Assembly (NCBI GenBank): GCA_015179125.1
Contig: WHVA01000325.1
Location: 1-64,000, forward strand
Origin: Gautieria morchelliformis
Taxonomy: Eukaryota > Basidiomycota > Agaricomycetes > Gomphales > Gomphaceae
DNA: 64,000 nucleotides
Reading direction: 5' to 3'
Positions 1,835 to 24,060 of this stretch are shown here, one piece after another. Within the stretch, counting starts at the first letter, position 1; every line of letters begins with the position of its first letter. The position numbers and the translations under genes are program-made. The notes below the pieces were generated by a model that was given only the letters and a program-made list of their open reading frames with translations, ran no database searches and was not told the DNA's origin.

Positions 1835-1976
1835 CAGCCTACCCCACGCGGCATCACAACCGCGCGAGCGATCCATGGCCCCAACGGAAGGCTAGGGAAT
1901 CCCTGACCAGGCCGACGTCGTACCAATGGAGCCGTACGACGGGATCACGCGGATGATCCGCGTGGCGTTGGCAGAC

Positions 1977-1987
1977 GCCGCGGACAC
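1977..1987. repeat. 11-bp flanking duplication at the copia insertion (left copy)
   Basis: GCCGCGGACAC lies two bases before the copia 5' LTR and is repeated at 7134-7144, one base after the 3' LTR. Read across the gap, it restores a continuous integrase reading of the host Ty3 element. Confidence 0.8.
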
Positions 1988-1989
1988 AG

Positions 1990-2371: not shown

Positions 2372-2385
2372 GGGTTATGGGCCCC
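2372..2385 (+). promoter_or_regulatory. Primer-binding site, half-tRNA-iMet type, containing the Gag ATG
   Basis: GGGTTATGGGCCCC follows the 5' LTR directly. It is complementary to the anticodon stem-loop of eukaryotic initiator tRNA-Met (GGGCCCAUAACCC), the primer arrangement known for Drosophila copia, where a cleaved half tRNA primes reverse transcription. The same site follows the LTR of the minus-strand copy at 10321-10330. The ATG inside it is the only upstream start for Gag. Confidence 0.8.
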
Positions 2386-5300: not shown

Positions 5301-6621
5301 GAAGTTTGGAGTCAACTATGATGAAACATATTCACCTGTTGCTCGGTTATCCTCCCTACGGATCATATGCGCCATTGCTGCTAGGAATGACTGGCCTATC
5401 CATCAAATGGACGTGGACTATGCATACCTCAATGCTACACTGCCTGAACCTATTTACATGAAGCAGCCGTATGGATATGAGTCCGGAGACAAAGACGAAG
5501 TGCTACTTTTGAAGAAAGCACTCTACGGCCTCAAACAATCTGGAAGGGAATGGTACAAACATCTAAGTGGTGAATTCCACAAATTAGGATTCACTACGTC
5601 AGCCACAGATGGGGCTGTATTTTATAGACGTGGCGGAAAGGGGCATGTGATCATTGCAACAGCTGTGGATGATCTCACCATCACAGCTGAGAATCAGTCA
5701 GTCCTGGACGAAGTCAAACGAGATCTTGCTCAGGTCTTCAGTATGAAAGATCTAGGCGAGATTCATTGGCTATTGAATCTTAAAATCGAAAGAGACTGGC
5801 AGAAGAAAACCATTGCAATTTCACAACCTGCATACATCGAGAAGATCATCAAGAAATTCAATCTCGAAGATGCAAAGACTTATGCTACGCCCCTTGATCC
5901 AGCCGTTAAATTATCTAAAGACCAATGTCCTTCTACAGAGAGAGGCAAGAAAGCCATGTCGAAGTTTCCATACAGGCAAGCCATAGGATCACTGATGTGG
6001 GCAGCTGTAGCCACTCGACCTGACATTGCATTTGCGGTGTCATTGCTCTCGCAATTCCTCGAAAATCCAGGTGGCACACATTGGAATGCAGTCAAACGTG
6101 TCTTCAAATGTTTGAAAGGCACGAAGCATTACAAGCTCACACTTGGAAGAAATCAAGACGGCTTGATGGGGTATTCAGATGCGGATTGGGGTTCACAGAG
6201 CCATAGGCGTTCGTATTCGGCATACTTATTTCAGATTGATGGAGGCACTGTTTCATGGAGTTGCCAGAAACAGTCGATAGTAGCCCTCTCATCAACTGAA
6301 GCCGAATTCGTCGCCCTGACCCATGCGGGCAAAGAGGCTCTCTGGATGCGCCATTTTATTTCTGAAATATTCCAACCACTGAACAGACCCATCCAAGTTT
6401 ATTCAGACAATCAATCAGCCATTGCCATCACGTATGGCACTCAACAACGCACGAGAACCAAACATTTCGACATCAGATTATGTTTCCTTCGAGATATAAT
6501 CAAAAATCAACAAGCCAAGCTCGTTTATTTGCCAACCGAACAAATGTTGGCAGATATTCTCACTAAAGGACTTCCTAGTCCTAGAGTGAAGATCCTCAAC
6601 GAGCAAATCGGAATATATTAA
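2377..6621 (+). CDS. copia Gag-Pol polyprotein, 1414 aa
   Basis: This polyprotein packages and copies the element RNA and integrates the cDNA. The domains in order are: Gag of the copia type (about residues 1-235, with SNWPLWRATLISYF near the N-terminus), a CCHC knuckle (CTNCKKPGHSIENC, about 245-258) and a Lys-rich linker. Next come an aspartic protease (LDTGTTSHM, about 328), the GAG-pre-integrase segment and the integrase core (YSDVWGP and IDDYSRES, about 525-545). The reverse transcriptase follows (KSRMVAQGF, MDVDYAYLN, and VDD in ATAVDDLTI), then RNase H (YSDADWG, STEAEF). There is no internal stop. The start was chosen because no other ATG precedes the conserved Gag block; it lies inside the primer-binding site. 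Function is certain by family; activity is inferred from intactness. Confidence 0.97.
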   Translation: MGPGDTSEKLLGVEKLATDGSNWPLWRATLISYFESKNLLKHVEGRVTRPPDPPVMPPGHILTEAEETQMDKAEEKLERYLAREGQAKTQIIVSVSESLALMLQKQKTAKETWDALVNEMTKKPKMVLTSLQRQLRSMRCPEDGDLRDHLDKAQDLYARLNEMGARVSEEEFMDIILASLPPSYEAVMNALTTSLEECGMPLVPDNIIRVLKAQYDRKKTLPQEEQVFIGSSTKKDQKGQKAHICTNCKKPGHSIENCWAKGGGKEGQGPHQKKKAKGKKKKKGKAKANVAEEESSSEESGDGHLAFTNFDECSNFNLSTSSGVIVILDTGTTSHMTPHKNLLRNYCQFSQPRTIRAANKGTFDAFGSGLLVLSNKVGDKTVEVTLQDTYYAPKIAATLVSVGRCDDAGYDIRLGGQKCTISNAVGKVLMQAPKVNGLYRLDLQSPSAQAHMCLSAMEIHQKMGHISQKSLQHLLNHGMILGIELSSTGDRIVCDACIQAKIARKPLPREPRDRTSKFGDRIYSDVWGPARHLTIDKKSYYVSFIDDYSRESVIYLMANKSEAFSKYKLYEALMLRQRNVHIKALVSDRGGEYTSSEFEQHLAKQGTKHQLMVHDTPESNGVAERLNRTLTERTRALLLDSGLPKILWGYAIQHANYLRNRTHTRALPDKTPYEMIHHEKPNLKDIHAWGTEVYVKVTQGDKLEARAKRARWIGISAQSHGHYIYWPDSHKVSVERNVVFDSEMKKGKVPIISIEESKLPMSREEKKAIPASVPVPGRLVSEEAKIEEIDESAPEEYLEELQPIQGVDDRPREAEPIRRSERIRQQQVQPAPSGPVTRSQTQRQAGAHMTTLAYEDVEDHKEVLFDQELSSEIDGISSYECAISAFPTDGQNSDKAPDLSQIEPSNADEALNNPMWKKSMDKEYEALIDKGVWERAKPPPGANIVGNKWVFLWKHNPEGKPIKPKSRMVAQGFTQKFGVNYDETYSPVARLSSLRIICAIAARNDWPIHQMDVDYAYLNATLPEPIYMKQPYGYESGDKDEVLLLKKALYGLKQSGREWYKHLSGEFHKLGFTTSATDGAVFYRRGGKGHVIIATAVDDLTITAENQSVLDEVKRDLAQVFSMKDLGEIHWLLNLKIERDWQKKTIAISQPAYIEKIIKKFNLEDAKTYATPLDPAVKLSKDQCPSTERGKKAMSKFPYRQAIGSLMWAAVATRPDIAFAVSLLSQFLENPGGTHWNAVKRVFKCLKGTKHYKLTLGRNQDGLMGYSDADWGSQSHRRSYSAYLFQIDGGTVSWSCQKQSIVALSSTEAEFVALTHAGKEALWMRHFISEIFQPLNRPIQVYSDNQSAIAITYGTQQRTRTKHFDIRLCFLRDIIKNQQAKLVYLPTEQMLADILTKGLPSPRVKILNEQIGIY

Positions 6622-6634
6622 GCTTGAGGGGGCG
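6622..6634 (+). other. copia polypurine tract
   Basis: GCTTGAGGGGGCG lies between the Gag-Pol stop codon and the 3' LTR, the place and composition of the plus-strand primer of copia elements. Confidence 0.8.
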
Positions 6635-7132
6635 TGTTGGGTGCATTTATGCTCCTGCACCAAAATCAAGCATAATATATTCGATTTGCTGTATGGTGTT
6701 TCAATCTCTTCTCACATTGTTCTTGTACCATGCACCCATTTCTCTGATTATTTTCGAAATTTTCCAGTCACTCCTTACCTCTCCATTTCATCTTGTTATT
6801 TCTATTTTCACAAGCGGCTGCACCCAGCGGAGTCTGAAATGACTTCGACGCGCGAGCTCTTGGGCGCTAAAGGGCCGGGTAGTAGTACATGCACAGTGAG
6901 ACAGATTTCCCCCTCTCTCAGTGACAACTAAATTCACTGAGAGAGGCAAGTAAATTAGTCTAGTGTTCTTTCGATTTATTGACCTAGAAATCCTCTGTAG
7001 TGAATTAATTTCTAGGTAGTGTATAATATACTTACAGTGACAACTAAATTCACTGAGAGAGTGAATTAATTTCTAGTCTATTCTTTTGAGCAAGCAGTCC
7101 ATACCTACTGCCTATAATTCCTGTCCTCTACA
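6635..7132 (+). repeat. copia 3' LTR (498 bp)
   Basis: Begins TGTTGGGTGC and ends CTCTACA. It has two copies of the 27-bp repeat CAGTGACAACTAAATTCACT... (near 6912 and 7034), where the 5' LTR has one. Outside that, one substitution near the left end (A here, T in the 5' LTR) was noticed. Confidence 0.95.
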
Positions 7133-7133
7133 A

Positions 7134-7144
7134 GCCGCGGACAC
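7134..7144. repeat. 11-bp flanking duplication at the copia insertion (right copy)
   Basis: Second copy of GCCGCGGACAC (see 1977-1987), after a single extra A that follows the LTR. Confidence 0.8.
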
Positions 7145-7741
7145 CCCGTTCAAGGGGGTGGCCCGGTTCGCACATCAGGCAAAATGGAACCTGATGGCGG
7201 CACACGATGCAATCATAGAGCATCGAGTGATGCAAACGTTTCACGCAAATAAGAAACGTATGGCGAGCGACAGGTACGCGGCCGACGACCGCGTCTACCT
7301 TTCGACACAAAACCTAACTCTCCCGAAAGGAAGAGCCAGAAAACTAGTCTCGCGGTACATCGGACCGTACCGCGTCGTCGAGGCTCACAACGACGCCTCA
7401 AAGGTGACCCTTGATCTTCCCGACGAACTGAAAAGCCGTCGCATTTCACCGGTCTTCCATTCCAGCCTCGTACGGCGATACGAGGCTAACAACGACGAAT
7501 TGTTCCCTCGTCGTGAGGCCAAGTCATTTTATGACTTCGGAGCAAATGACGACGAGGAGTGGCTCGTCGACAAGATTATCGCACATCGATGGATAAACTC
7601 GACGGACCTGGAATTCCAGGTCCGTTGGACCTAGGCGACGTGACATGGGAACCTATGTCGTCCTGCAAGGACCTTGAAGCCCTGGATAGCTACCTAGAGC
7701 TTCGGGGGGTGGGCAAGCCACGCGACCTCCCCAGACGCCGC
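7134..7741 (+). pseudogene. Integrase C-terminus plus chromodomain of the Ty3-type element (frameshifted)
   Basis: From the copia insertion to 7634 the reading encodes the end of a Ty3 integrase: a helical stretch with NLMAAHDAIIEHRV, then KLVSRYIGPYRV and ISPVFHSSLVR, the SH3-like GPY/F module. A chromodomain then starts (EEWLVDKIIAHRW... VRW). The frame breaks near 7630 and the chromodomain continues in the next frame (GDVTWEP ... LEALDSYLEL) to the stop at 7741. The chromodomain marks a chromovirus, a group that targets chromatin by binding modified histone tails. The coding region before it (protease to integrase core) is absent. Confidence 0.85.
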
Positions 7742-7887
7742 TAGACGCGTCCGTCACGTGCAGGCCATGTGACGCGCCTGCCACGGCGCGGTTAAATTTT
7801 CACCTCAGATCTTTCCGAGGGCGCATCGCTTCTTGGAAGCAACCACCACCATCATCTACCCACGAAGATGATGCCCCTAAAGATGGG

Positions 7888-9576
7888 ATGGACGTTGACC
7901 CGTCAACGTCCACAACGCGAACAACGGCCCCGAGACAAGGGGCCGCAGACATTCTCCATGCTCTGATAGACCAGGAGCACTGGACGATCGTGGGATGGGA
8001 GGACGCCCTCGCCATCGTCCACCCGGACGATTGCGCAACATGCGTGGACTACGCCGTGCACCTTAGAGCCGCGACCGGCACCCGCAAGGTCAAGTTGCGG
8101 GATGAAGACATCGGCGACGCCGTCGATGCAGCTTGGGGATGGCTCCCAAGGGCATCACGCGTGACGCGCGAGAAGAGCCCCTCCGGGACGTCCACAACCT
8201 CAAGAAAGAGGTCAAGGAGCTAGAACGCGCGGTCGAGGACCGCGACGACGCGCTCGTAACCGAGCGCGCCAGGATCAAGGAACTGGAGCAGCAGCTGAGT
8301 GCAGCCCAGCTCCAGGTTACCCTGGCCCACGTTGCCTCAAAAAGGCCGCGACATGACCCGGCCACAGACCCAGTGGCCGGGCCATCTTCACCTCGCGCGA
8401 CGGCGCCATTGCCGGCACACGCAACATCGGGGCTCGCATCCCGATTGTCGGCGCGACTCCGACCACGACAACAACGGAAGGGCAGAGCGCACCTTCCGAC
8501 TCTGCGTACGGCGTCCCAGATGGATGGGAGTCAGACTCGTCCGTCTGGAAGACGTACGACCCCGAACGGGCACAGCGGCTGGCAGAGCAGCCAAAGAAAA
8601 AGCACAAGAAAAAGCGCGGCTCCCTCCACACCATCAATGGGCTAGCCATTGCGAAGGAAAGCGCAATCAGCGCTTACCTAGCGGCGTCATCGTCGCACAC
8701 CATCAACGACCCCGCCCTTCAGCGGCGGGTAGCACAGGTCGAGGCCCAGTACATCGGGCCTGGCGTGGCCCTACATCCGCCGGCGGGGACAGTTGAGTCG
8801 GTTCATCCTCCATACCCGGGGGAGGGAAGGCTCATCCCACTCGGAGACCCACCGATCTCCGAGACGGGCCTCCTACCACGACCGGTAGGAAAGGCCCAAC
8901 AATGTCATACCCAATGGTACAACGTCTGCCCGCTCAACGAACCACGCTTCGTCGAACTCATAGCGCGGGCAAAAGAAACGCCGCAGATCGCGCGTATGCG
9001 CGAGATGATCGGCGTGTTCAAACGCATCGAGCGCGAACAACGCGCTCGCAATCCCAAAAGGGATTGTCTCGTGATAGCGGGTGGTACCCGCACGACATCG
9101 CGGCCATTCTAAAGGGTTGGATACACAACCCTGAAGGAATCCCCTCCGCCACCCGTGACAACGCGGATGGCACCTTCAACCTAGACGACATGGACGTCTG
9201 GATGTGGTTGAAGGCCCTTGCACCCCGGGTCAAAGGGGTCGCATCACCGCTCAGGGCGAGGCTACTCGACCTCTTTGGCTCGACGGACCAATGGTCAAGC
9301 CTCGTCGACGCCAGGGAAGTGCTGACGCCTCAGAGCACCACCCTGCGGCTCTCAATCACGGGCCCATTCCCTGTGGAGGGCCGGGCCGGCCCCGACATCC
9401 CACTCGCGGAGATCGCGAGATGGTTGGCCCGCTACGCGGGAGTCACGAGCGAGCGAGCGGCGCGCATTGAACATTACGTTCAGCACAGCATCACCGGCGC
9501 AGCATTCAGCGCCGCTGCCCGTGAGGGCCAACAAAAGGTCATCGAGACCAGCCACGTGAGGGCCACAGTGCCGTGA
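7888..9576 (+). pseudogene. Extra ORF downstream of pol in the Ty3-type element (several frames)
   Basis: Between the chromodomain and the 3' LTR, protein-like readings continue through several frames: 7888-8223 (DPSTS..., then HWTIVGWEDALAIVHPDDC), a coiled-coil-like stretch in 8133-8370 (KKEVKELERAVEDRDD), 8765-9112 (ARMREMIGVFKRIEREQ) and 8902-9576 (GTFNLDDMDVWMWLKALAP). They look like one protein broken by frameshifts. Some agaricomycete Ty3 elements carry such an additional ORF; I do not know its function. It resembles neither env nor a known enzyme. Confidence 0.5.
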
Positions 9577-9877
9577 CCCCTCACTCATGCTCAGCTCGAC
9601 CAAGAGCTGGCGCGCTTCCGGCCCCCTCCTCAAACGGAGGACCCGGCTGTTGAGGCCATGCTCCGAGATGACGCGGGCCCCAGCGCCCAAGCGGAGACCG
9701 CCGCTAATGGTGAGGCCGACCAGCCTCACCCGATCGCCACCGATGACACGGAGGTGCCCCGGAGGAGTCATGTGCTCCTCCGGCCCCGTATGACGACGTC
9801 GTCGTCGTATCGGCCACTCTAGAGGACTCCCTCATGGACAACCTCTATGAGTAGGCGTTAACCCCTATAGTTGTCTA

Positions 9878-9890
9878 TAGAGGGGGAGGG
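9878..9890 (+). other. Polypurine tract of the Ty3-type element
   Basis: TAGAGGGGGAGGG lies directly before the 3' LTR, the expected plus-strand primer. Confidence 0.8.
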
Positions 9891-10103
9891 TGTAAATAAC
9901 CCGTGTATCTACATGTACATTAGTTATTACATAATCCCAGTGGGCCCCTTAGGACCCACTGTATAGTTTAGGCGTGGGAACCGGCTAGCGGTCCCCATCA
10001 CATCTTACTCTTACCTGTCACTACGTAGCATTCAGAATACCACTCATTGGTCAAGTTCTGCAGTGCCCTTGTGATACAAGGTCCTAAGATCGACATCTTT
10101 ACA
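9891..10103 (+). repeat. 3' LTR of the Ty3-type element (213 bp)
   Basis: TGTAAATAAC...ATCTTTACA, nearly identical to 240-453. It is followed at 10104 by TCAGC, the target duplication. Confidence 0.93.
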
Positions 10104-10330
10104 TCAGCCTTCTCTATCTGAGTTTCCTCAGCTTCTGTAAGAATATGGCCTGGGGGAATGACTGGAGGATCAGGAGGTCGAATGGCCCTCCCTTCTATAT
10201 GCCTGAGTAGATTTTTGGACTCAAAATAACTTGTGAGAGTAGCTCGCCACAGAGGCCAATTACTTCCATCTGTTGCAAGCTTCTCCACACCCAAAAGCTT
10301 CTACGAAGTGTCTGCGGGGCCCATAACCCT
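10104..10330 (-). pseudogene. 5' end of Gag in the minus-strand copia copy, with early stop
   Basis: The minus-strand reading from the ATG in the primer-binding site (10321-10330 region) matches the N-terminus of the intact copia Gag (LATDGSNWPLWRATL). Codon 8, GAG in the intact copy, is TAG here (10301-10303). The reading is cut at 10104 by the Ty3 insertion and resumes at 239. This copy is therefore doubly inactivated. Confidence 0.9.
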
Positions 10331-10818
10331 TGTTAGCAACTCGGGGTTATGGCAGGGAAGGTTCGGTAGAGTTCTTAGAAAGCTAGAATCAAATTCACTC
10401 TCTCAGTGAATTTATTGTCACTGTTATATTAATACAATACCTAGAATCAAATTCACTACATGATTTTCAGTCAACATGCTATGAAAATACAAAGAATACT
10501 ACTCGCCTCTCTCAGTGAATTTATTGTCACTGAGAGAGGAGTACTATCCTGTCTCAGAAGGCATATACGTGCACCCGGCCCTTTAGCGCTCAAGAGCTCG
10601 CGCGTCGAAGTCATTTCAAACTCCGCTGGGTGCAGCCGCTTGTGAAAATAGAGATAACAAAATGAAATGGAGAGGTAGGGAGTGATTGGAAAATTTCGAA
10701 AATAATCAGAGAAGTGAATGCATGGTACAAGAACAATGTGAGAAGAGATTGAAACACCACACAATAAATCGAATATATTATGCTTGATTTTGGTGCAGGA
10801 GCATAAATGCACCCAACA
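10331..10818 (-). repeat. 5' LTR of the minus-strand copia copy (488 bp)
   Basis: TGTTAGCAAC at 10331 to ACCCAACA at 10818 is the reverse complement of the copia LTR, with clear divergence from the plus copy (for example a different R/U5 end) and the same CTCTCTCAGTGA hairpin family. The matching distal end and target duplication lie outside the window. Confidence 0.9.
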
Positions 10819-11009
10819 CCTTCTACATCAGCTATCTAATGCCTTGCCACCCAGGTGGGCAAAAATGCAACAGAGCTCACTTCAGCTTGACACAGACACT
10901 CTGCTACACAAACATCAACTCCAGCTTAATAAAGCCTCACTGCAGGAATCTTACAATTTGGTCTGGTATTCTCAAGTATGTTAGCCTATTCCTTTCATTT
11001 TAATATTAA

Positions 11010-12774
11010 TTGACCAGCCCACAGGCTGGTGTTGTGCCTTTGATCATAACTATACAACTAACAACACCATACATGTCCTTAGAGGCTGTAAATATGGCTA
11101 CATTCAATCTAATGGAAGCCCTTGGGCTCACCCCCGCCTCACTTTGCCATGCATATCAACGAGGGGAGTGGCGTGTGCATCAAATGGATACACATTGGAA
11201 GGTACAGCCAAGCCAGCAGTTACTTTACCATGCATTTGATACCACTCTGGCTTCATGTCTTGGGCTGCACAAAGAGATCGCTCTGCAAGCCCAAGCAACT
11301 TCTTCATAGGCTCCCAAACGCAAGGGGGAGCCAGTAGTGTCACCTCCAAAAAAAGCGAAGGCAGCATGCACCATTGAAATATCTGATGATGATGATGATG
11401 ATGACAATGACTTGCCCAGTGCCAGATCACTTTGACGACTGCTTCATCCTGCAGGAAAACCTCCCTCTGTCCTGATTATTCTTCCACGATGATGGTCGCA
11501 CCTGCCACTAAATCCCAGATTACTGTACCAATACCAGCTCATCTATCAACATTAGGTCCTCGACAATGGCCAACCGACTTTGATTTCATTGATGTAGTGA
11601 AAGGCTTGGAGAAATACAACAGGAGATTGAAAGAGGGTTATACTCAGCAGAAGGCTTTTCAGGACATGTTTGGTATACCATATGTATGGCAGACATTAAG
11701 CGACAAATGCCAACTTCTCAAGGGAGTACGGACTGACAATGAGCTGCTCTACGACACATTCTATGCAATGGGACATGTCAATGAGGCACGCTGGCCCTTT
11801 TTTGAGAGCAAGCCAGAGGGAAAGATAGTTCGTGGAAGCAAGCGTCTTGAATTGCTGGCCACAAGGGCCATGCCAGATTGTGAATCAGAAGAGGGTCATT
11901 CGGATCAGGCATACAATAAGTCACCAATGGCCAAGGTGGATACTACAAGTAAGGCTGCAGTTAAATTTCAAAGATTGGGACTCATACATTTGCAGATATA
12001 TGCCCTAAATGCCAACCCTTCTTCCCTGAAATGCTCACCCTGGCTTGATAAATTTATTAAGCTGTACATTTGGTACAGGTATGGTTATGCACCTGACCGT
12101 CTTCATGTTCAAGAGCATGGCGAGCTCCTCTGGGCAATTCATGACATGGAAGCAGACCACTACACTCAGAGGGGATCCGAATTAAACTGGCTGACCAAGT
12201 TGGATAAGCAGTGGATGGGAGTGGCCATAATCAAGCTGAAACTGCACTGTGAGACACTGATAGCAGGTGCCCCAATCACCAATCAGTTCATTGAGGTCAA
12301 GGATATGATCGAGTCTGGCCATGAGGACATTGCTGCCAGCATGCCACCATAAGTGTTTATGCTCGCGAGTACAGATGGCTTAGGAGTGCCAGCTAGTGAG
12401 TCCTTGATTCTTATATCCAAGGGTTTGATTGATCATTGGCTGTTCTCTAGTTTTGGAGAACAAGGTTCCATTTTATTTTACAGACATTGCAAACACTCTT
12501 CCCCATCGACACTGTATTCCCCGATACCATTAAGTGTCTCACAACTGCACTTATCATGGAGCTTGAAGGTTGTTGACCCATCAATGCCATGAAGTCGTAT
12601 CATGTCAGCTGCAATTGGGGTGGTGCATTTCTTCCACTCACAACTGGAACACGAGGTGAGAGTGTGGATGTGGAATATCAAAATATGCAAGAGCAGGAAC
12701 AAATGGCAGCTGCTGTCACTGGACATGATAAGGCAAAGCTGTCATGCCTGGTGAGGTGTCCAAATCCCCTTTAG
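11010..12774 (+). pseudogene. Decayed gene of an unrecognised family
   Basis: Not recognised. Coding-like pieces follow one another on the plus strand: 11010-11309 (EALGLTPASLCHAYQRGEW), a Lys-rich segment with an acidic run of seven Asp ending at 11434, and the longest ORF 11432-12352 (306 aa). That ORF contains WPTDFDFIDVVKGLEKYN and AFQDMFGIPYVWQTL, a layout I associate with repetitive agaricomycete proteins of unknown role. Short stretches near 12487-12573 and 12589-12774 could be later exons. A poly-GAT tract encodes the acidic run. No domain of known function is visible. It could be a degenerated gene with introns or a captured transposon gene. It is convergent with the cysteine-cluster pseudogene at 13318. 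Confidence 0.35.
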
Positions 12775-13317
12775 TGCACGTGAAGGAGGAAACCGAAGAC
12801 ATTGTAGTGACTGCAGACTACTCAGTATATCATCTGATGGCAATAAGCTCATCACACTCAACAATTCAGATGATGACTGAGTACATAGGAAGATTGACAT
12901 CACGGTTTATTGTTTGCGCTAATGTCCCATTTATTCTATTCACAGAGGACTATATATATGCTATTCCATCATGGCCGGCTACTGTAAACCTGCATTCCCA
13001 TCCTATTCTGTATCATTGCTCCATCTTCTGTTGCTTTCCCATCACATATATCGCTGCTTTTTCCGACCCACTGTGACTCATTATTGCATGCACTGCCGTC
13101 CATTGCACATATCATCCCCATGCATGCTCATTTGCAAGTCAATGCATATCCTTTTTCCATCATGTCCTGAGTGGTGTATTCAATACACTTGTGTTCCCAT
13201 TGCTGCTGCCTAAATATATCTTGTAGGCATTTTGATTTTGAGTGAGATCACACAACCTTGGGTAATTGAACTGGTCTATATTGTCCTATTTTGATCATAG
13301 AATACATGAGAATCATA
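12775..13317. other. No gene recognised
   Basis: AT-rich sequence with short T/C-rich runs and only short ORFs without coding character. I see no RNA gene or repeat boundary here. Confidence 0.5.
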
Positions 13318-13426: not shown

Positions 13427-13821
13427 TGTTATGACCATGCATTTTCGACTTCCGACACTCAGTTCCGCTCACATTCCGACCCTCCGATAATTCCGACATT
13501 TCACCCCTTGTTATATCCATTGTTCTTTCGACTCTATTACTCGGACCCACCGGACTCGCCTCACAGCACAGCAAGACCATATGTCTGGCCCCTTTGGAGT
13601 CTCGTTGTTTCTTTATATCAGATATACTTTCTGACCCCTTGTTCTTTTGCCATTGTTCTACCCTACCCTGTACCCCCTTGTAGTCCCCTTGTGTCCAATT
13701 AGTTGTTTACCCCGTATGTCTATCTGACTTCCACTCCATCTGGAATTTTCTTAGTACTACCCCATTACATGTTGTCTCTGTATAAAAGCCCCTCATGTAT
13801 GCTCATTATTCTGCAATCAGA

Positions 13822-13826
13822 TAATC
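13822..13826. repeat. Target-site duplication TAATC (left copy)
   Basis: TAATC at 13822-13826 is repeated at 22241-22245 and flanks the 383-bp TG...CA unit. The uninterrupted family-A LTR has a single copy in ATAATCACCTT. Confidence 0.88.
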
Positions 13827-13926
13827 TGTCAGGGGACACCCTGTTTTCCAGTTCCAACACCACACCAAGTTCCGACTCCATTTCCAACTCCACTTTCAGA
13901 AATTATTCTGCTTCTGGGAGAACTTC

Positions 13927-13931
13927 CACCA
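13927..13931. repeat. Target-site duplication CACCA (left copy)
   Basis: CACCA at 13927-13931 is repeated at 21958-21962, immediately outside the LTRs of the full family-A element. Confidence 0.93.
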
Positions 13932-14623
13932 TGTTACGTATCGAGATTTCCACTAAGTCGGAACTGGAAAGGACAGCGGCTTCAACTTATAGGTTGCGCC
14001 CCCAATGAACTATCGTCCTAGGTATTTCGGAAATGAGCCGGAAGTCGGAAAGTACTGGACCAGAGGTTTGGTCGGAACTTGAGTCGGAACTGAGGCGGAA
14101 GGCGGAAGACGGAAGGCTGAGAGAGAGACTGAGATCTTGCTAGACTCGCTGTGCTAAGAACAGGAGATGGAGCGAAGGAAATCAAGTATCGAAGGTGATT
14201 ATCTGATTGCAGAATAACAGACATACATGAGGGGGTTTTATACAAAGCGCAGAGCAACAAGTAATGGTGTTGTACTAAGCAAATTCCGGAGGAAGCGGAA
14301 GTCGAGTACAATGTGTGGGAACTAACTAATTGGGAACAATGGGACCACAAGGGGGGTTCAGGGTAAGGTAGAACAATGGCAAAGAACAAGGGGTCGGGAA
14401 AACATATCTGACAACGAACTACAAGGGTGACCGGATAGATGGTTTTGATGGATGGCGAGGTGGGTCCGGTGGGTCCGAGTAATAGAGTCGAAAGAACAAG
14501 GGAAATGTACAAGGGGCGGAATGTCGGAAATGTCGGAGGGGCGGAACGTGTGGCGGAACTATTGGAGAGGCGGAATGTATGGCGGAACTGAGGGTCGGAA
14601 GTCGGAAATGAACGGTCGTAACA
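13932..14623 (-). repeat. 3' LTR of family-A element (692 bp)
   Basis: On the plus strand it reads TGTTACGTATCGAG...GGTCGTAACA. By hand count it contains 18 copies of CGGAA on the plus strand and one on the other. It would also have to drive, outward-in, the antisense gene that starts at 14746. Confidence 0.95.
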
Positions 14624-14637
14624 GTATCTCCCTTCTA
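14624..14637 (-). other. Polypurine tract of family-A element
   Basis: The minus strand reads TAGAAGGGAGATAC directly before the 3' LTR, the position of the plus-strand DNA primer. Confidence 0.65.
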
Positions 14638-14745
14638 AGGTCGAGCCCCGCGAGACCACAGGTCGGAATCACGTGACCTGTGAACAAACGCGTCGGAGTT
14701 TGAAATATAGGCTGAAGGACAAACGCGTCTTCTCTCCATTCCATC

Positions 14746-15973
14746 ATGAGTGCCCCAGTAGATTTCTCTAAGATGTCCAGCGCGGAGATGAAACAGCACT
14801 TCGCTGATATGCTCGCGCAAAAGGAAATGGCCGAGAAACGCGAGGCTGAGGAAGCTGCGCGGAAAGAGAAAGAACGTCGGGAGAAGGAGCGGAAGGAGCA
14901 GGAGAGGAAAGAGCGCGAACGCCGCGAGGAGGAGGAGCGCGTCCGTGAAGAGAAACGGAAACGGAACGCGGCACGGAAGGCTGCTGCGGACAAGGCCGCT
15001 GCAGAGAAAGCGGCTGCGGAGAAAGCGGAAAGGGATCAGGTGAGTCGGAAATGTCCGGCGGAAATGTTCTTGAAGTTAACCAGAGTTCTTCCAGGATCAT
15101 GTTCAGGACGAGTCAGAGTCAGACTCGGAAGGTTCGGCGGAAAGTACACCGACTCCGGAAGGAAAAGGGAAGCAAAAGGAGATTGCGACCCCGGTGAACC
15201 TTGTGGCGGAACGGAAAAGTCGAGCGGACGCATTCCAGAAGGCTCGAAAGGAGAAGTTGAGTCGGATGTTGGAACTCCGTGAACTGGGGCCGGAAAATCC
15301 CGCGACTAAGAAGCGGAAAACTCGGGACGGCGATGAGGAGAAGGCCCCATGTGACCCATGCGAGTCTAAGGGGGTGGATTGCACGTGGTCGAGCAAACCA
15401 CGGGAAACGTCGTGCGACCAGTGCCGTGACCGGAAAAGGCGCTGCGTCGTGGACGGGTGCGCTTCGAGGCTGGAGCGAAAGAAACAGAAGGTTGAGGAGT
15501 CAAATCCGAAGGCGGAACCGGGACCGAGCGGAGGGAGGGCCGAGGAATCATTTCCGGTGACCGGAAAGTCGGCACAGGCGGTGTTGAATCGGTTCACCAT
15601 GGCTTCTCCGCTCCTCGACATTGCTGGGTCGCTGAGGGCCATGCGGAAACAGCAGCGTGAAATCCGGGACATCATGATCGAGATGGCCGAGGTTCAGCAG
15701 CATCAGGTTCTGTCGATTCAGAACCAGATGACTGTCATGTCTACCGTCCTGCAGCAGTTGACGCGGGAAATGCGGTGGCGGAACGATCTGGTCCGGGACC
15801 GAATGGATGCGCGGCTTCGGGAGCAGGGAATTGGGGCGGAAGCTGGTCCGAGCGGTGGGGCGGAAACAAGGGAAAGGGTGGAAACGGAGTTGGTGAGTGT
15901 CGAGGTAGGAGAGGCGGAAAAAGAGCCGGAAGCGGAAGAAGAGGTCGAGGCGGAGACAATGGGGGAGGAGTAG
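14746..15973 (+). CDS. Antisense Zn(II)2Cys6 zinc-cluster protein carried by the chromovirus, 390 aa, one intron
   Basis: Exons are 14746-15039 and 15095-15973; the 55-bp intron (GTGAGT...TTCCAG) keeps the frame and the total is 391 codons. The first about 100 residues are a highly charged Glu/Lys/Arg helix, followed by Ala/Lys repeats. Residues 184-215 hold six cysteines, CDPC ... C194 ... C205DQC208 ... C215, spaced C-x2-C-x6-C-x10-C-x2-C-x6-C. This is the classic fungal zinc-cluster spacing, with basic residues in the second half (CRDRKRRC). A Gln/Met-rich helical segment (about 265-320) may dimerise, and the C-terminus is acidic. Such proteins bind CGG triplets in the nucleus. The gene lies tail-to-tail with pol inside a retroelement, 122 bp from the LTR. 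Role inferred: self-regulation or host gene capture. Confidence 0.8.
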
Positions 15974-16103
15974 GGTGTCGAAGTGACTTGTAATATTTTT
16001 CTTGAAGTGTCGGAAATTAGCGTAACGGAAATTGAATCGGATTTTAATAATGACTTGAGAACTGTAAGAAAGCAATGGGTGTCGGAAATGAGGTCGGAAT
16101 TGA

Positions 16104-19100
16104 CTAGGGCGCGGAAATGGGGCCAGGCTTGTCATGATATGACTTGTGAAAGTCAGAGACGAGGTCAGAGGCGTGGTCAAGTTCCGTGGCGGAAATCCAC
16201 GAAGTCTCTTCGTCAGTGTTTTCATAGCCTGCCCACTTGACTAGGTACTGGAGTTGGCAGCGGTATCTTCTGTCGAGCTTGGAGTTGAGAATTTCCGAAA
16301 TCTCATATTCCGGTTCTCCGTCGATGACGACTGGCGGAGGCGGAGGTTGTTCTCGATTCGGAATTGTATTCGGAACTGCTGGCTCAAGCATAGAGACGTG
16401 GAATACCGGATGTACTGCGCGCATATTGTCAGGAAGTCTGAGGGTGAAAGAACGACTGCCGGCCTTAGCGATGATCTCGTAAGGACCGAGGTATTTCTCA
16501 GAGAGTTTCTTCGAGGGGCGAGTGGTGCGGAAGTTTTCCGCTTTGACAAAGGCTTTGTCGCCTATCTCGAATGCCGGTTGCGGAAGGCGTTTCCGATCGG
16601 CGGAAGTTTGGTATCTCTTCTGGGCAGCGGTAATGTTCTCTCGGAGGTGCTGGTGAAGGTCGTCAAGTTCCACAACGAAATCTCGGGCTCTTGCAGAGGC
16701 GAGGTCGCGTTCGGGGTGGATGGCGAGATTCGGGTGGTAGCCCTTGTTGGCATAAAAGGGTGAAATTCCGGTGGTAGCGGAAGGCGCGTTGTTGTAGGCA
16801 AATTCCGCGAGCGGAAGAAGGTCGGACCAATTGCTATGTTGGTAGTTGCAATAGACGCGGAGATACTGCTCAAGGGTCTGATTAGTACGTTCCGTTTGTC
16901 CGTCTCCTTCGGGATGATAACCGGAAGTGAAGTGGAGCTTCATGTCGAGAGCCTTTCCGAGGGTGCGGAAAAAGGATGACACGAATTCGGATCCACGGTC
17001 GGAAGTGACATGGGAAGGGATTCCGTGCTTGGAAAAGACGTGGAGCACAAAGAGCTGTGCGAGCTGGGCGGAAGTTATGGTGTCGTAGGTCGGAATAAAG
17101 ATGGACTGCTTTGTGAGGCGGTCAACGATCACTAGAATGGTATCATAGCCGGATGACTTAGGAAGTTTCTCAATGAAATCCATGGATATCGAATTCCACG
17201 GTTGTTCCGGGATCGGAAGTTGCTTCAGGAGGCCGTAGGGTTTGTGACGTTGAGGCTTGGCTCGCATACAGGTGGTGCATGACTTGCAGTAGTCTTGGAC
17301 CATCGTGCGGAGGAGAGGCCAAGTATAGGTGCGTCGGATTATGTCGAGGGTCTTGTTCTGGCCTTGGTGTCCTGAGAGCGGATGATCGTGGCTTTGCTGG
17401 AGCACGCGAAGTCGTAGATCGTTGGTGTCCGGAACGTAAATCCGGGACTTGTACCGGAGAAATCCGTCGGAATCGAGGGACCATCCAGGACTGGTGGGGT
17501 CATCGAGGTGGGCTGCGGAGGTGGGGTCGGAACGGAGTGCGGAACGGATGTCGGAATGGAGAGACTCGGTGTCCATAATAATTGAGGCGCGGAGTAGTGG
17601 AAACTGCAATGCTGTGGCACGCAGGGACGATGCCAGTTGCTCAGTGGAGAATACTGGGCGGAAATTGTGCGGATTAACGCTGGCATAGTCGCTACTTCCC
17701 TCTTTTGGGTAGACGTCCCAACGTCTAGTGAGCGCGTCGGGTTTTGCTCCGAGCTTTCCGGGGCGGAAACGGATCACCATGTTGAACTGTGAGAGGTATT
17801 CAGACCAGCGGACTTGACGGCGAGTCAAAATCTTAGTGGTTGCAAAATACTCAAGGTTCTTATGATCCGTTACAACGTCGATGGATAAGTTGGACCTTCG
17901 AGGTAGTGTCTCCAATTTTGAAAGGCTTCGAAAATCGCAAGTAGTTCCTTATCGTGGACGTCGTAGTTGAGTTCCGGGGCGGAAAAGGTGCGGGAATGAA
18001 AGGCGATCGGATGAATTTCTCCGTCGTCGGGTGAAATGATGGAAAGAATGGCGGCTAGCGCGTAGTCAGAAGCGTCGGTTTCGAGTACAAGTTGGGCATC
18101 AGGAATCCAGAAACCGAGTATGGGAGCCGTGGTGAAGGCCGATTTGAGAGCTTCAAATGCGGAACGGCATTCCGGTGTGAAATTCCATGGGGCACCCTTC
18201 CTGGTGAGACGCGTGAGCGGAACAGTAATGTCGGAAAAATTATAAATGAAACGCCGGTAAAATTGGCGAAGCCAAGGAAAGACTGCACATCCTTAACACG
18301 TCGGGGTTCCGGCCATTCTTGAATTGCCTTGACCTTGTCCTCTGCCATGGTAAGACCTGTTGGAGAGAGGATGTAGCCGAGGTATTCGACCGTGTCGCGA
18401 TGCCATTCGCATTTCTCTGCTTTTGCGTAGAGATGGTGTTTGCGTAGGCGGCGGAGTACTTCGCGGACATGTTCCCGATGTTTTTCCGGTGTGTCGGAAT
18501 AGATGAGGATGTCGTCAATGTAGACTAGAACGCATACGTCGAGGAGGTCGGAAAATACGTCGTTCATGAATCGCTGAAAAGCGGCGGGAGCATTGGTTAG
18601 ACCAAAAGGCATGACAGTCCACTCAAAAGCACCGTAGCGGGTGCGGAAGGTGGTTTTCCACTCGTCACCTTCCCGGATGCGGACAAGGTGATAAGCGTGC
18701 CGGAGGTCAATTTTGGTGTAGATCTTCGCCCTGCGGGGGTGTCGAGTAAGTCGGAAATGCGCGGAAGCGGATATTTGTCCTTTTTAGTGAGGGCATTGAG
18801 TCCGCGGAAATCGACGCAGAGGCGGAGAGATCCATCCTTCTTCTTGACGAAGAGGACCGGAGCGCCGTGCGGAGACAGCGAAGGGCGGATAAAGCCCATG
18901 TTGAGATGTTCATCGACGAACTCTCGGAGAGTTAGGAGTTCACTTTGCGAAAGAGAGTAGATCGGTCCAAGGGGCGGAGATGCTCCTTCTTCCAAATCTA
19001 TCTTCAAGTCGTAAGGTCGATGTTCAGCAGGTTTGTCGGCTTTGGCCTTATTGAACACGTCCGGGAAGTCACGATATTCTTCCGGAACTGAGCTCATGTC

Positions 19101-19804
19101 GACCGGAGCGGAAGTCGAGGCGGAACGAGCCTTGACTGAAGCCGAATCGGAGAGGTGAAGCTGGAAAACGGTCGTATCATCTTGCCGTTGCAATACGCGG
19201 AAAGCGGTGGCGGAAACGAGCGCAATTCGAGGGGCTTCGAGGGGCGGAGGTGCTAAAGCGGGACCGGAGTGCGGAACTGAATCCACGAGCGGAGTTGCAG
19301 AAGAGGCCTGAGCCATCTTTGCAGAAGACGTCGGAATAGATGGAAGTTGATCCGGGGTACGGAACTGTATTTGACCCAATGCCCAGTTAATCGACGGATT
19401 ATATCGGGTGAGCCAATTGTGTCCTAGTACAACGGAACAGCTAGCATCTAGCGGAGTAACGTAAAACGTAACTTCATGGTTGTCCCCAGTAGCGAAACGG
19501 ATAGACAGATCCACAACTTGGGAAATTCCCGTGTTGGAAGACCCGTCGAAAAGGCGGAGCGGAATAGTCGGAATGTTGCGGGTCGGAAGTTTATGTTTCA
19601 AAACAAAGTCGGAATCGAGGAAACAATGAGTCGAACCGGAGTCGACCAATGCTGTAAACGGGGGTGCGGAAATGGTGTCGGAAGTGAGCGGAACAGAGAG
19701 AGAGTCGGAGGACGAAAGAGCGGATGCGTTGAGTTTAACCTCGTTTGTCGCACGAATGGGGTCAACACAGCCCTCAGCTCGTGCGGAGGCCGGAGGACTG
19801 CTGA
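16104..19804 (-). CDS. Pol polyprotein of family-A chromovirus (frame broken three times)
   Basis: In element sense: aspartic protease ([13 protein letters not shown], near 19650), reverse transcriptase ([20 protein letters not shown]; catalytic YIDDIL near 18510), RNase H ([23 protein letters not shown]), integrase with a zinc-binding HHCC start (HPLSGHQGQ... CTTCMRAK) and DDE core ([29 protein letters not shown]), the GPYEI module, and a C-terminal chromodomain ([11 protein letters not shown] ... [17 protein letters not shown]). It copies and inserts the element. Frame changes near 18735 (after DTPAG), 18260 (ANF|YRRF) and 17880 each fit loss of one base, one of them in a T run. Elsewhere the frame is intact to the stop at 16104. 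The 5' boundary is set at the gag stop; the exact processing start is unknown. Confidence 0.92.
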
Positions 19805-21231
19805 CTATTTTTTTGAATCCGCAGCGGGAACCGCTTCGGATTTCTCTTCCGTCTTTGCTGCGCGGCCTTTGGCCTTAGCAGCGGAGGCGGAAGCGCGAGT
19901 GCAGTCGCGAGCGACGTGACCTCCTTTGCCGCAGAAGAGGCAAAGGTTGTTGTCCATGCGACGCTGGCGTTCTACAGGGGTTAGTTTTCCGTCTTTCCCA
20001 AGTTTGTCGGAAAGATCCGGGGTACTCTTCCGGGCGTTGGTGTTAGAACCAGAGGCCTGGTTGTTCCGAGGGGTGTTGTTGTTGTTCCGGTTGCCGGAGT
20101 TGGATCCGGAACTGTTGTTGTTGTTGTTTCCGGAGTTGGTGTTTCCGGAATTGGTCTTCTTCTTGTCTTTATCAGACTTCTTGTCGGAAGACTTGTCGTT
20201 CTTGCTCTGGGCGGAAGTTTCACGAGCAATCTCGGAGTGTCTTTCCCAGTAGCGCGAATCGATGGATTGGGCGAGGTTGCGGAGGTCGGTAAGGGTGGCG
20301 GGTTTTCCGACGCGGGCAATTTCATCCTTGATGCGGGATGGCAAGCCCATGTAAAACTGGCGTCGGAGTGCGGCTTCTCCCCATTGGACTCGAGGAGCGA
20401 GCTGCTGAAACGTGACGATATATTTAGCTATCTTATGAGTGTCTTTCATGCGAAGCTTATCGAGTTCGTTTTCCGCATCGGCTTCCATATCAAATGGTCC
20501 GAAGTTGCTGCGGAGTTCGGAAATGAAATTGGGGTAATCGTCGGCCCAGTCGACGAGAGCGAACGGATCCATGAGGGCGGGTTCGAAATAGTCGAGCGCC
20601 GTGCCTCGGAGATAGGAAAGGGCATAATTGACCTTTCGTTCGTCGTCGGGAAAGGCGTCGGGACGATCACGGAAATTGAGTTGAAGCTGAACCAGAAATG
20701 GCTGGAGCTTCTTGGGGTCGGAACCGTCGAACTGATCTGGTTCGCGGACCTTTGTCTTGGGGCGTGGTGGTGCTTGGGCCGGGCGCTGGAGTTGTCCGGC
20801 TAGCATGGCGATGGCTTGTGCAAGATCCGGAACTGGCGCGGGCGGAACTGGGTTGGCGGGAATCTGAGGTGGAATTGGAGGTGGAGGACCGCCGGGAGGA
20901 CCGCCTGGGGGACCGCCGGGTGGGCCGCCATGAGGGCCGCCTGGAGGTGGTCCTGGTGGAGGTGGTGTGGTGGAGCTGGGCGTCGGAATGACGCTGCTGT
21001 TTGTTCGCCGCTGCTACTCGTCGAATTCCCGTCGTAGTCGGGATTGTCGTCGGGATTAGCGTCGGGAACTTCTTCGAAACGTTGCGGAAAAGCATCGGAA
21101 AGCTCATCGTCGGCACGAGAGCTGTTGGAGGGTTCCGCGTGCCTTGGTGCTGCGGATCTAAGATTGCCAAAATAAGAGAGAGCTTCGACAGCTCCTGCTC
21201 GAGCTGAAGTAGCTGTGGTACGAGGAGGCAT
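19805..21231 (-). CDS. Gag of family-A chromovirus
   Basis: The main reading 20985-19805 has a Pro/Gly-rich lead, then the capsid-like retrotransposon Gag domain ([39 protein letters not shown]). It continues with a Ser/Asn/Lys-rich linker and one CCHC zinc knuckle ([14 protein letters not shown]) near the C-terminus. The most likely start is the ATG at 21231 ([13 protein letters not shown]), 33 bp inside the 5' LTR, but that reading and the main one are in different frames with the change near 20990. That is either a one-base error or mutation, or an unrecognised small intron. The pol frame differs from gag, as usual in Ty3 elements. Forms the virus-like particle and binds RNA. Confidence 0.88.
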
Positions 21232-21251
21232 AGTGATAGTTATCGGGTGGG

Positions 21252-21262
21252 AATCAGATAAT
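21252..21262 (-). promoter_or_regulatory. Self-priming primer-binding site of family-A element
   Basis: Two bases inside the 5' LTR, the element strand reads ATTATCTGATT. It is the exact complement of AATCAGATAAT at 21541-21531, the predicted first bases of the element RNA. No tRNA 3'-end complement (TGG...) is present. This is the Tf1/sushi self-priming layout. Confidence 0.75.
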
Positions 21263-21530
21263 ACTGTTACGTATCGAGATTTCCACTAAGTCGGAACTGG
21301 AAAGGACAGCGGCTTCAACTTATAGGTTGCGCCCCCAATGAACTATCGTCCTAGGTATTTCGGAAATGAGCCGGAAGTCGGAAAGTACTGGACCAGAGGT
21401 TTGGTCGGAACTTGAGTCGGAACTGAGGCGGAAGGCGGAAGACGGAAGGCTGAGAGAGAGACTGAGATCTTGCTAGACTCGCTGTGCTAAGAACAGGAGA
21501 TGGAGCGAAGGAAATCAAGTATCGAAGGTG

Positions 21531-21541
21531 ATTATCTGATT
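21531..21541 (-). promoter_or_regulatory. Predicted transcription start and self-primer (start of R)
   Basis: AATCAGATAAT on the element strand lies about 35 nt after the TATA box and is complementary over 11 nt to the site at 21252-21262. The position is inferred; no transcript data. Confidence 0.6.
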
Positions 21542-21568
21542 GCAGAATAACAGACATACATGAGGGGG

Positions 21569-21576
21569 TTTTTATA
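21569..21576 (-). promoter_or_regulatory. TATA box of the family-A LTR promoter
   Basis: TATAAAAA on the element strand, about 35 nt before the predicted RNA start. The same core is conserved in the old solo LTR near 13783. Confidence 0.65.
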
Positions 21577-24060
21577 CAAAGCGCAGAGCAACAAGTAATG
21601 GTGTTGTACTAAGCAAATTCCGGAGGAAGCGGAAGTCGAGTACAATGTGTGGGAACTAACTAATTGGGAACAATGGGACCACAAGGGGGGTTCAGGGTAA
21701 GGTAGAACAATGGCAAAGAACAAGGGGTCGGGAAAACATATCTGACAACGAACTACAAGGGTGACCGGATAGATGGTTTTGATGGATGGCGAGGTGGGTC
21801 CGGTGGGTCCGAGTAATAGAGTCGAAAGAACAAGGGAAATGTACAAGGGGCGGAATGTCGGAAATGTCGGAGGGGCGGAACGTGTGGCGGAACTATTGGA
21901 GAGGCGGAATGTATGGCGGAACTGAGGGTCGGAAGTCGGAAATGAACGGTCGTAACACACCAGTTCTGTTCACTTGCCAATTCCACTCCACTTTCCGACT
22001 TCCGCTCTTGGAACAGTGTCGGAAGTCAGGCGGCTCACATAGTATGTGGCATCAAGGGTCGATCAAGGGTCAGGGAGGTCAGGGGGATGCAGGGTTGGTG
22101 GTGAGTGCTGAGTGTTGTCCCTGGCTGCGGAACATAGTATAATACAGGCTCGCTGACATTGGGGGTCCTTAGACCTTTCTCTTCGGATTTCCCCTTGTCA
22201 GTTGTGTGGTAGGGTGATCTCCACAACCAGTTCCCTTACATAATCACCTTTGATACTTGATTTCCTTTGCTCTATCTCCTGTTCTTAGCACAGCGAGTTT
22301 TGCAAGACCTCTGTCTCTCCGCCTTCCATCTTCCACCTTCCGACCCAACTTCAGACTTCAGTTCAGTTCGATACTTTCCAACTTCCAACTCGCAATCTGA
22401 AATACTTAGGACAATATTTTATCGGGGGCACAACATATAAGTTGAAGCCGTTGTCCTTTCTAGTTCTGACTTGTGGAAATCTCGAAATCTCGATACATAA
22501 CACCATTATAAGGTTGCACTGCCATATCATCTCGTCCAGGAAAAAAATTATACCTGTCCACCTGCATCTCTTGTACAATAGGCAGAAATCCACCCAACCA
22601 GGCATTAGTCTGTTCAGCTACAGACGAGTTGAAACACCACTGGCCTTCTGGTGTCCTAAGTTCAGGCCAAAGCATAGGGTTACAGTTGTGTGTGCACCAC
22701 ACATCTGTCTTCTTGTGTTTGCCTTCGTAATGGAAAACATCAACCGGTAGAGCACAGTTTTCAAAATATGTGTCATGTTCTGCAGCAAGCATTAATGAGA
22801 TTATACAGTTGGTGTCCATCCATAAAACTTCTGGGAGTGATTCCTTTGTAGGAAACAACCCACATCAGAACTCCTATCAATAACATTACTTAGGGAAGCA
22901 TGCTCACAATAAAATATACTCACCCTAATACTGTTTTCCCCCTCAGAACCATAGAAAGTCACCCTACCCAATATGACACCACATGACGCAACACATAATT
23001 CTTCATTATGCATGTGTTTGCGTCCAAACCGCGCCCTGACTTTGCGGTTTCCCATATCCAGCTTACTAGGGCACACCTCAGTTACATCCAGAGGTGGATT
23101 TGTTTCAAGCCCACCATCTGCACCTACAAGGATGTGTTCATCTTCCAAGTTCATGAACTCGCTTTCATTGAAGCTCTCCATTACACCATCTTCAAGCGGA
23201 ATTGTCATATCCTTTGCTAATCGGTCAGCTGAATTAGGAGGGATTGAAGCTGGGGGCTGGCTTGTTTTGTTATGTTCCAGGCGTTATTTCAGCTGGAACA
23301 TCGCCTTTGCCATATTTCTGTAATATTATTCACATGAACAGTGTTCTTTGTCATTACATGTCTTGAAATTGGGTGCATGCTTTTGAGTGCATGAAACAAC
23401 TGCACAATATTCTTGTTTGTAATCATGATGGGGACAGAACATTGCCTTGTTGTTGGCAAGTGGTATCCTGCAGTGCAGAGCACCAGCACAGCATGGATGA
23501 CCCAAAGGAACACCATCTGTAACCACAGAGCATATTTTTCCTGGAATATCATAATCTACTGCTGTTATGAAGAAGATAAAGGTAACTTATGCATTTCACC
23601 CCCTTCACCTGGAAATACATGTGTACAAACTTCACAGTTGTGATTCCACTCAGGCTTCCCTGGTCCCATCATACTCAGGTTTCATTTTTCTAAAGTGGGA
23701 CGTAGCCTATCCACCTGGGTCTTGGCCTCGTTTGGAATTTGCAAGAAGGTTCCGTGGCTTTCATAGTCAATGAGGAGTCCATGGATGAAAAATGCATCCC
23801 AAACAGCATCATTATACAGTGTAAGTTGGGGCTTCCAATCGAGAGTAAGGAGATACTTTATATAACTGGGGGCAAAAGACATATTATAAATTCTTGCACA
23901 ATTGGTCACAGAAGTCCTAAGGCACGTGAGATCGGTTATTGTTAGCTTAGGAATAAAGAAAATATTCTCACCAAGCACAATTCATCATGGTGGCAAATAT
24001 CTCACATACACTTGATTCCAGGAAGAAATGCTGGGAAGCCTGTATGAAGTCAGGTAAACC

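Follow-up and report, generated by a model that had tools for sequence, protein, structure and literature searches.

In plant LTR retrotransposons, the aORF-3R genes (Grande gene23 and those of RIRE2, Retand and PvRetro13) are conserved genes that lie antisense in the interval between pol and the 3′ LTR; according to excerpts of a review (PMC7264820), they are found in all or most copies, some of their proteins are nuclear, and the proteins have no clear similarity to known proteins. In fungi, Boty-like elements of Botrytis cinerea carry an antisense gene, brtn (Zhao et al. 2011, as cited in PMC7264820 and PMC8365987), and excerpts of those two articles mention neither a zinc cluster nor saturating motifs for it.

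A precedent of another kind is a protein that binds the DNA of its own element. VANDAL elements belong to the Mutator group of DNA transposons. Their VANC proteins, anti-silencing factors of Arabidopsis, are element-encoded, sequence-specific DNA-binding proteins whose motif is dense and in one orientation in the element itself, and VANC21 and VANC6 target different motifs (PMC5735166; PMC10398659, both in excerpt); these motifs are located mainly in non-coding tandem repeats (PMC5735166, in excerpt).

Here we describe a Ty3 chromovirus in 64,000 nucleotides of Gautieria morchelliformis DNA (contig WHVA01000325.1, assembly GCA_015179125.1, positions 1 to 64,000; hereafter the window). Like the aORF-3R elements, it has a conserved antisense frame between pol and the 3′ LTR (in 30 of 30 gene-bearing loci, with dN/dS below 0.25 against 16 divergent copies), and like Boty it is an LTR retrotransposon of a fungus that carries an extra gene in antisense. 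In contrast to the plant elements, it has a zinc-cluster motif in its antisense protein, a DNA word that saturates it, and a gene that is exchanged as a cassette. It shares with VANDAL elements a short motif that is dense and largely in one orientation, although binding by the fungal protein is a prediction, and its word also fills silent coding positions. Since it is an LTR retrotransposon it is not a member of the VANC group, but its protein would work like VANC. Our searches of the open-licence PMC literature listed no retrotransposon whose antisense gene encodes a zinc cluster; the main text of one survey of fungal LTR elements (PMC3248453) contains neither "zinc" nor "antisense," and excerpts of another (PMC10799480) mention no such gene.

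Results

A Ty3 chromovirus with a gene opposite gag-pol

The element has the features of a Ty3 chromovirus, that is, LTRs, gag, protease, reverse transcriptase (RT), RNase H, and integrase followed by a chromodomain, with gag-pol on the minus strand (Table 1). Profiles for gag, protease, integrase and the chromodomain scored above their cut-offs, while that for RNase H fell slightly below (24.5 vs 24.8 bits) in the split frame of this copy. The element is bounded by a 5-bp target-site duplication (CACCA). An earlier reading of this DNA, made from its letters and open frames (the sequence-only reading), had noted LTRs differing by one base, and indeed the sole difference is 1 nt of length in a T run. 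It had also called the element very young, with which the near-identical LTRs agree. However, gag-pol (16104-21231) is broken into several frames in this copy, and open frames of 1257 codons with RT are present at other places in this genome; thus, the LTRs are what supports that description.

Table 1. Positions in the window of the chromovirus, its antisense gene and the exchanged segment
Feature	Position	Strand	Remarks
Whole element	13932..21957		128 CGGAA and 30 TTCCG on + (15.9 and 3.7 per kb)
3′ LTR	13932..14623	-	LTR comparison; element orientation, as gag-pol is on minus
Exchanged cassette, window vs C242	14700..16105	+	mismatches rise at ~14700 and drop at ~16100
Antisense gene, exon 1	14746..15039	+	98 codons, highly charged
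Intron of antisense gene	15040..15094	+	55 nt, GTGAGT...CAG; predicted from sequence
Antisense gene, exon 2	15095..15973	+	292 codons + stop
Zinc-cluster motif	15350..15445	+	C-x2-C-x6-C-x10-C-x2-C-x6-C
pol: RNase H end, integrase, SH3, chromodomain	16104..17915	-	profiles
pol: protease + reverse transcriptase	18055..19649	-	two frames in this copy; profiles, RT via homology to copies found with RVT_1
gag with zinc knuckle	19805..21231	-	two frames in this copy; profiles
5′ LTR	21265..21957	-	LTR comparison

Two nucleotides past the 5′ LTR, the 11 nt ATTATCTGATT (minus strand, 21252-21262) are complementary to AATCAGATAAT in the LTR, which is ~35 nt downstream from a TATA-like box and near the expected transcript start. 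This pairing looks like the self-priming of Tf1, a Ty3 chromovirus with a self-primer. The element shares with such chromoviruses both the chromodomain-bearing gag-pol and the 11-nt LTR complementarity, but differs in its extra antisense gene and word saturation.

Inverted LTR-like sequence surrounds the element (13500-13931 and 21958-22500). The left flank contains CAGGGGACACC (at 13830), which is also found in an LTR of a second Ty3 family (family 2, locus L070), and thus the insertion seems to be nested in family 2. Elsewhere, the window holds a separate copia element (1989-6933; not enriched in CGGAA, with a 1430-codon gag-pol frame and with repeats at 1989 and 6634), a tandem array of a 120-bp unit with nearly identical inner copies (27197-28574), and pieces of a host gene matching Sec16 (Sec16 mid-region and TPR_Sec16; 49735-53385).

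The antisense gene is old and under purifying selection

On the plus strand, between the end of pol and the 3′ LTR, two exons separated by a short predicted intron form an open frame of 390 codons, confirming the intact two-exon frame opposite gag-pol that had been claimed for this copy. The gene shares no bases with gag-pol and is therefore conserved in its own right. A six-frame search of the same genome (122 Mb, 1113 contigs) yielded 123 matches at 106 or more places, which is a lower bound because 106 of 1058 candidates were scored. We examined 30 loci with flanks, one of which is the window, and found the order LTR, antisense gene, pol in all 30, although these loci were picked via the gene and the figure does not give the share of elements that lack it. 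Together with 20 divergent copies from the 76 other gene places, they make up a set of 50 loci.

The intron was detected by pattern in 46 of these 50 loci; in the other four the pattern matched elsewhere, and three of them align to the window intron while L001 does not. Its length is 51-57 nt, and it occupies the same place in other allele classes. In several divergent copies its length is a multiple of three and it is free of stops, so that a retained intron would also be readable in those copies.

We compared exon 2 by the NG86 method in a set of 25 sequences (four with internal stops, read as X), and found dN/dS of 0.12-0.23, at dS of 0.89-1.67, when the window was paired with each of 16 divergent copies; three closer pairs gave 0.34-0.44. 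Any constraint that CGGAA places on silent sites would only increase these ratios. Thus, the gene is old and under purifying selection. The sequence-only reading had asked whether frame, cysteines and intron are conserved among family copies with dN/dS below 1, and all were; where it would have been contradicted by copies lacking the gene or by neutral decay, we found instead the gene at no fewer than 106 places and selection to preserve it.

Protein searches found no homologue outside this genome, either at E ≤ 0.001 with residues 130-350 (998 candidates) or at 0.01 with a 12-row alignment as query (8000 candidates); both depended on shared 5-residue words, so absence from other fungi does not follow. 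One locus (L061, G000:C5) has an integrase 96% like that of the window and a gene match of only 60% over 125 residues, with no readable Cys6 motif, and represents another divergent or decayed allele.

A zinc-cluster-like motif with reversed halves

The protein was previously proposed to be of the Zn(II)2Cys6 type on the basis of six cysteines spaced 2-6-10-2-6. We found this spacing, plus a seventh cysteine, in the window, and all seven cysteines were kept in 49 of the 50 loci, all 49 with the 2-6-n-2-6 spacing of Zn(II)2Cys6 proteins; the remaining locus (L049) has a stop within the motif. However, the scores against Pfam Zn_clus (PF00172) were below the cut-off of 21 (about 14.5 bits for the whole protein, 19.9 for the best isolated piece). 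Searched alone, the first half (CDPCESKGVDC) matches Zn_clus positions 15-35 with 17.6 bits and the second half (CDQCRDRKRRC) matches positions 1-13 weakly (11.2 bits, E 0.43). The halves are therefore in reversed order relative to the Pfam family, and the basic, DNA-reading half does not come first. No PDB chain matched the domain in a sequence search.

All 49 motif-bearing loci have a lysine four residues past the second cysteine of the basic half (variants were read by eye), and the basic half-cluster is nearly constant among alleles. From the Gal4 alignment, we take this lysine to be at the position of Gal4 Lys18. In Gal4, Lys18 contacts the guanines of CGG (PMC5559640, in excerpt). The fungal protein thus resembles Zn(II)2Cys6 factors such as Gal4 and Pho7 (PMC5559640, in excerpt) in its six-cysteine spacing, basic half-cluster, Lys18-position lysine and CGG-containing putative target, but differs in its reversed halves, sub-cut-off Pfam score and retrotransposon origin. 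Because of the swapped halves and the score, we call it zinc-cluster-like and keep it out of PF00172. The sequence-only reading did not foresee the swapped order. With this qualification, the prediction of an element-borne zinc-cluster-like protein is well supported.

Evidence that the gene moves between backbones as a cassette

In the copy on C242, the LTR matches that of the window at 97.4% and the first part of pol matches at 97.6%, but the gene is only 74.5% identical; dS is 0.074 for integrase and 1.01 for the gene. Three more copies have similar profiles (LTR 92-93%, pol ~95%; dS 0.155-0.165 for integrase and 1.30-1.52 for the gene), the integrase comparison for C220 being limited to 17400 since pol beyond this point aligns poorly. 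L001, which belongs to the allele class of the window, has a backbone less like the window's than that of C242 (LTR 94.6%, pol 95.5%).

We counted site patterns in four quartets, grouping the window with its own class, with C242, or in the third way (a C489 copy, whose pol is partly inverted, was excluded). In the gene, sites grouped the window overwhelmingly with its own class (140:11:6, 134:13:7, 171:10:4 and 178:12:5), whereas the window grouped with C242 in the LTR (1:9:0, 2:11:1, 2:5:2 and 2:8:0) and in pol (3:12:2, 6:10:1, 4:5:0 and 4:14:3), weakly so in the third quartet. A gene that merely evolves fast does not account for these results: in these four copies, the ratio of gene to integrase dS is 8-14 while dN/dS is low, the site patterns conflict, and the adjacent sequence is little diverged, which excludes mere fast mutation. 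Thus, recombination swaps alleles of the antisense gene between similar backbones as a cassette, plausibly by template switching. The sequence-only reading had held that the arrangement can be inherited stably, and it did not foresee that the gene would move between backbones instead of staying tied to one.

CGGAA saturates the element

CGG is the usual target of zinc clusters. When one LTR is counted, the element has 110 CGGAA and 29 TTCCG on the plus strand, compared to 0.4-1.0 per kb per strand in the rest of the window (1-13000 and 23000-64000) and 0-6.4 per kb in the LTR-like flanks. Relative to expectation, CGGAA occurs at 4.9-fold in the element, 1.0-fold in 41 kb of the window and 0.4-fold in eight copia loci. 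The excess was found in every part of the element compared to 200 dinucleotide shuffles: 18 vs 1.8 in the LTR, 17 vs 3.1 in exon 2 and 62 vs 10.9 in gag-pol.

The LTR has 18 CGGAA on the plus strand and a single TTCCG. Most of those in the 3′ LTR fall into two clusters, 14028-14110 and 14517-14603, the second of which is ~140-230 bp upstream of the antisense ATG. The corresponding clusters in the 5′ LTR are 21361-21443 and 21851-21937, with a TATA-like box at 21570, so that the counterpart of 14517-14603 is upstream of the gag-pol TATA-like box.

Codon use or amino acid composition alone does not explain the word. Plus-strand CGGAA is evenly distributed modulo 3 across gag-pol (24/19/19) and unevenly in single frames (integrase 11/7/4, larger gag frame 8/0/1, antisense gene 12/10/1). 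We compared each frame with 2000 synonymous shuffles in which protein and codon usage were held fixed. The antisense gene has 23 sites where 10.5 are expected, integrase 22 against 6.3, protease-RT 17 against 6.9 and the larger gag frame 9 against 2.7, and none of the shuffles reached any of these numbers; the observed number was reached once for the RT piece and 37 times for the small gag frame. In the opposite orientation, integrase (12 sites, 2.6 expected; 0 of 2000 shuffles) and the larger gag frame (9 sites, 3.9 expected; 2 of 2000) are the only frames that are clearly enriched.

Individual sites are not fixed. In exon 2, 29 positions carry CGGAA across 25 sequences, with 4-19 used per sequence; the window has 17 and L032 has 16, of which nine are common to both, and L033 and L046 have fewer (4 and 6). 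Alleles thus differ in which positions carry the word, with its density mostly preserved. Triple CGGAA with short gaps occurs 10,940 times genome-wide, compared to 902 for a backward control pattern. One copy adjoining a family-1 gene place (G000:C2:271307-271551) carries many head-to-tail units of the 12-bp CGGAACGGAGTG, so that here the word is amplified in tandem, as VANC target motifs are reported to be.

We also measured the decay of CpG to TG or CA in 29 sibling copies of the window element's family (family 1), leaving out L007, which is the window itself. Decay was seen in 63 of 1996 comparisons for CpGs within CGGAA (3.2%), 122 of 2155 for those in other CGG/CCG (5.7%) and 178 of 2878 for the remaining CpGs (6.2%). 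The difference between CGGAA and the remaining CpGs was significant overall, in the LTR and in the gene; pol alone showed no significant difference (P = 0.22). These copies are non-independent. In family 2, CGG/CCG outside CGGAA decayed almost as slowly as CGGAA (18.4% vs 15.3%; 16 copies compared to L079, with one 67%-identity match and L076, a short pol match, excluded).

Other Ty3 families have CG-containing words

The word is dense in its own element and rare elsewhere, as VANC targets are, yet it is not unique to gene-bearing elements. Family 2 (19 loci, integrase identity 37-46%) also has CGGAA as its top word, at 5.5-fold over expectation and with a silent-site excess in all three pol stretches tested. 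A single-frame pattern search of the 19 loci, up to 1.26 kb 3′ of pol, and of one 5′ region gave no Cys6 match. The coding strand is the CGGAA-richer one in 19 of 19 family-2 loci, whereas in family 1 the coding strand is TTCCG-richer (62 vs 27).

Family 3 is closer to the window element (integrase 70% identical over a 183-residue piece; 150 places scored). CGGAA is not enriched in it (9 vs 10); the top word of a 3.3-kb sample is CGAGG (47 vs 12), with a modest silent-site excess (20 and 14 of 2000 shuffles reach the observed number). It has an antisense two-exon gene with the pattern CARC-x6-C-x16-CVWC-x6-C and a GTGAGT intron, and a 401-bp piece of this is identical in a second copy. The family-1 and family-3 proteins have no significant similarity: BLASTP gives an E value of 0.77 over the cysteines, and hhalign a probability of 2%.

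In family 4 (RT 58% identical), the top word is GCGAA (31 vs 8 in a 4.7-kb sample), with silent-site excess in the two orientations (1 and 4 of 2000 shuffles reach the observed number). A search for the Cys6 pattern in L094, in L095 and in a 1.2-kb stretch that takes in the end of pol and continues past it found none. In the family-4 locus L100 (G000:C69:255000-256199), which also lacks the Cys6 pattern, an antisense two-exon gene 3′ of pol with a GTGAGT donor may exist, as judged by eye. Finally, L097 (G000:C232) has a mixed backbone, with protease-RT 98.6% and integrase 54% like the window, and is CGGAA-rich. In all, each of the four Ty3 families sampled has a CG-containing top word, and copia loci have no excess of these words.

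Discussion

Of the roles proposed for the antisense protein, saturation of its own element with CGGAA favors self-targeting. We lean, with reservation, toward the reading that the spliced zinc-cluster-like protein recognizes CGGAA sites across its element and is likely to de-silence sibling copies in trans. The antisense transcript would start in or near the 3′ LTR, be spliced and be translated, and the protein would enter the nucleus, where its CGG-reading half-cluster, judging from its residues and the density of sites, would bind CGGAA arrays in the LTRs and the body of the element. By analogy with VANC, the bound protein would most likely keep the chromatin of the element open, as an activator or anti-silencing factor, and would act in trans on siblings. 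Family 2, which has the word and, in the regions covered, no such gene, would draw on this factor as well. Sites that merely attracted silencing should be lost; the build-up of CGGAA, which leaves the encoded proteins unharmed, instead argues that binding helps the element.

Two main rivals are left: a host factor that binds these sites, and repression for copy-number control. In the first, CGGAA serves a host factor used by Ty3 elements and the antisense protein does other work, such as nuclear import or nucleic-acid chaperoning. Saturation of family 2, for which our searches gave no such gene, fits this idea, as do CG-containing top words in all four Ty3 families together with the lack of excess in copia. 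However, the words differ (CGGAA, CGAGG, GCGAA), even between family 1 and the 70%-identical family 3 in the same host, and one common host factor does not predict family-specific words. We consider this alternative unlikely, although a serious competitor.

The second, which we rate as rather unlikely, is that the protein is a self-encoded repressor that binds the same CGGAA sites and silences gag-pol, whereby resident copies would hold back newcomers, with the swapped alleles acting as immunity types. Dense LTR sites on both sides of the TATA-like box and the exchange of regulator alleles as modules on common backbones are what such a system might look like. But in the set compared, LTRs match at 90-97% from one allele class to another and the basic half-cluster hardly varies, so the alleles do not resemble a series of distinct binding specificities; furthermore, the spread of sites into coding sequence is not expected of a repressor.

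A role of the word in RNA (packaging, splicing, export or dsRNA), with the gene secondary, has in its favor the strong strand asymmetry of family 1 (128 vs 30), but the asymmetry of family 2 relative to pol is opposite, which argues for a signal in double-stranded DNA rather than RNA and makes such a role very improbable. That the frame is a captured host gene or a chance frame, a passenger with no function for the element, is hardly credible despite the lack of relatives found outside this genome, and is largely contradicted by low dN/dS (0.12-0.23) over deep divergence, by the conserved intron and cysteines and by the presence of the gene in the 30 flanked loci, which were themselves picked via the gene.

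The self-targeting reading may extend to other Ty3 families of this fungus. We put forward, tentatively and with less confidence than for family 1, that fungal Ty3 elements evolved a VANC-like code of self-recognition independently; that each family has its own CG-containing five-letter word throughout its sequence, coding parts included; that in at least some of them an antisense zinc-cluster protein with swapped halves reads the word and relieves silencing in trans; that its alleles are template-switched between backbones; and that gene-less families exploit the words of others. A 2020 review lists functions for the antisense genes of LTR elements as yet to be found (PMC7264820, in excerpt), and if our reading is right this question becomes testable. 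The reversed halves are in themselves a natural experiment in zinc-cluster architecture. If the proposal is true, retrotransposons can carry their own sequence-specific regulator and use silent coding sites as binding platforms for it, one family may exploit the factor of another, and the element would be a fungal counterpart, with one gene, to the VANC anti-silencing of plants.
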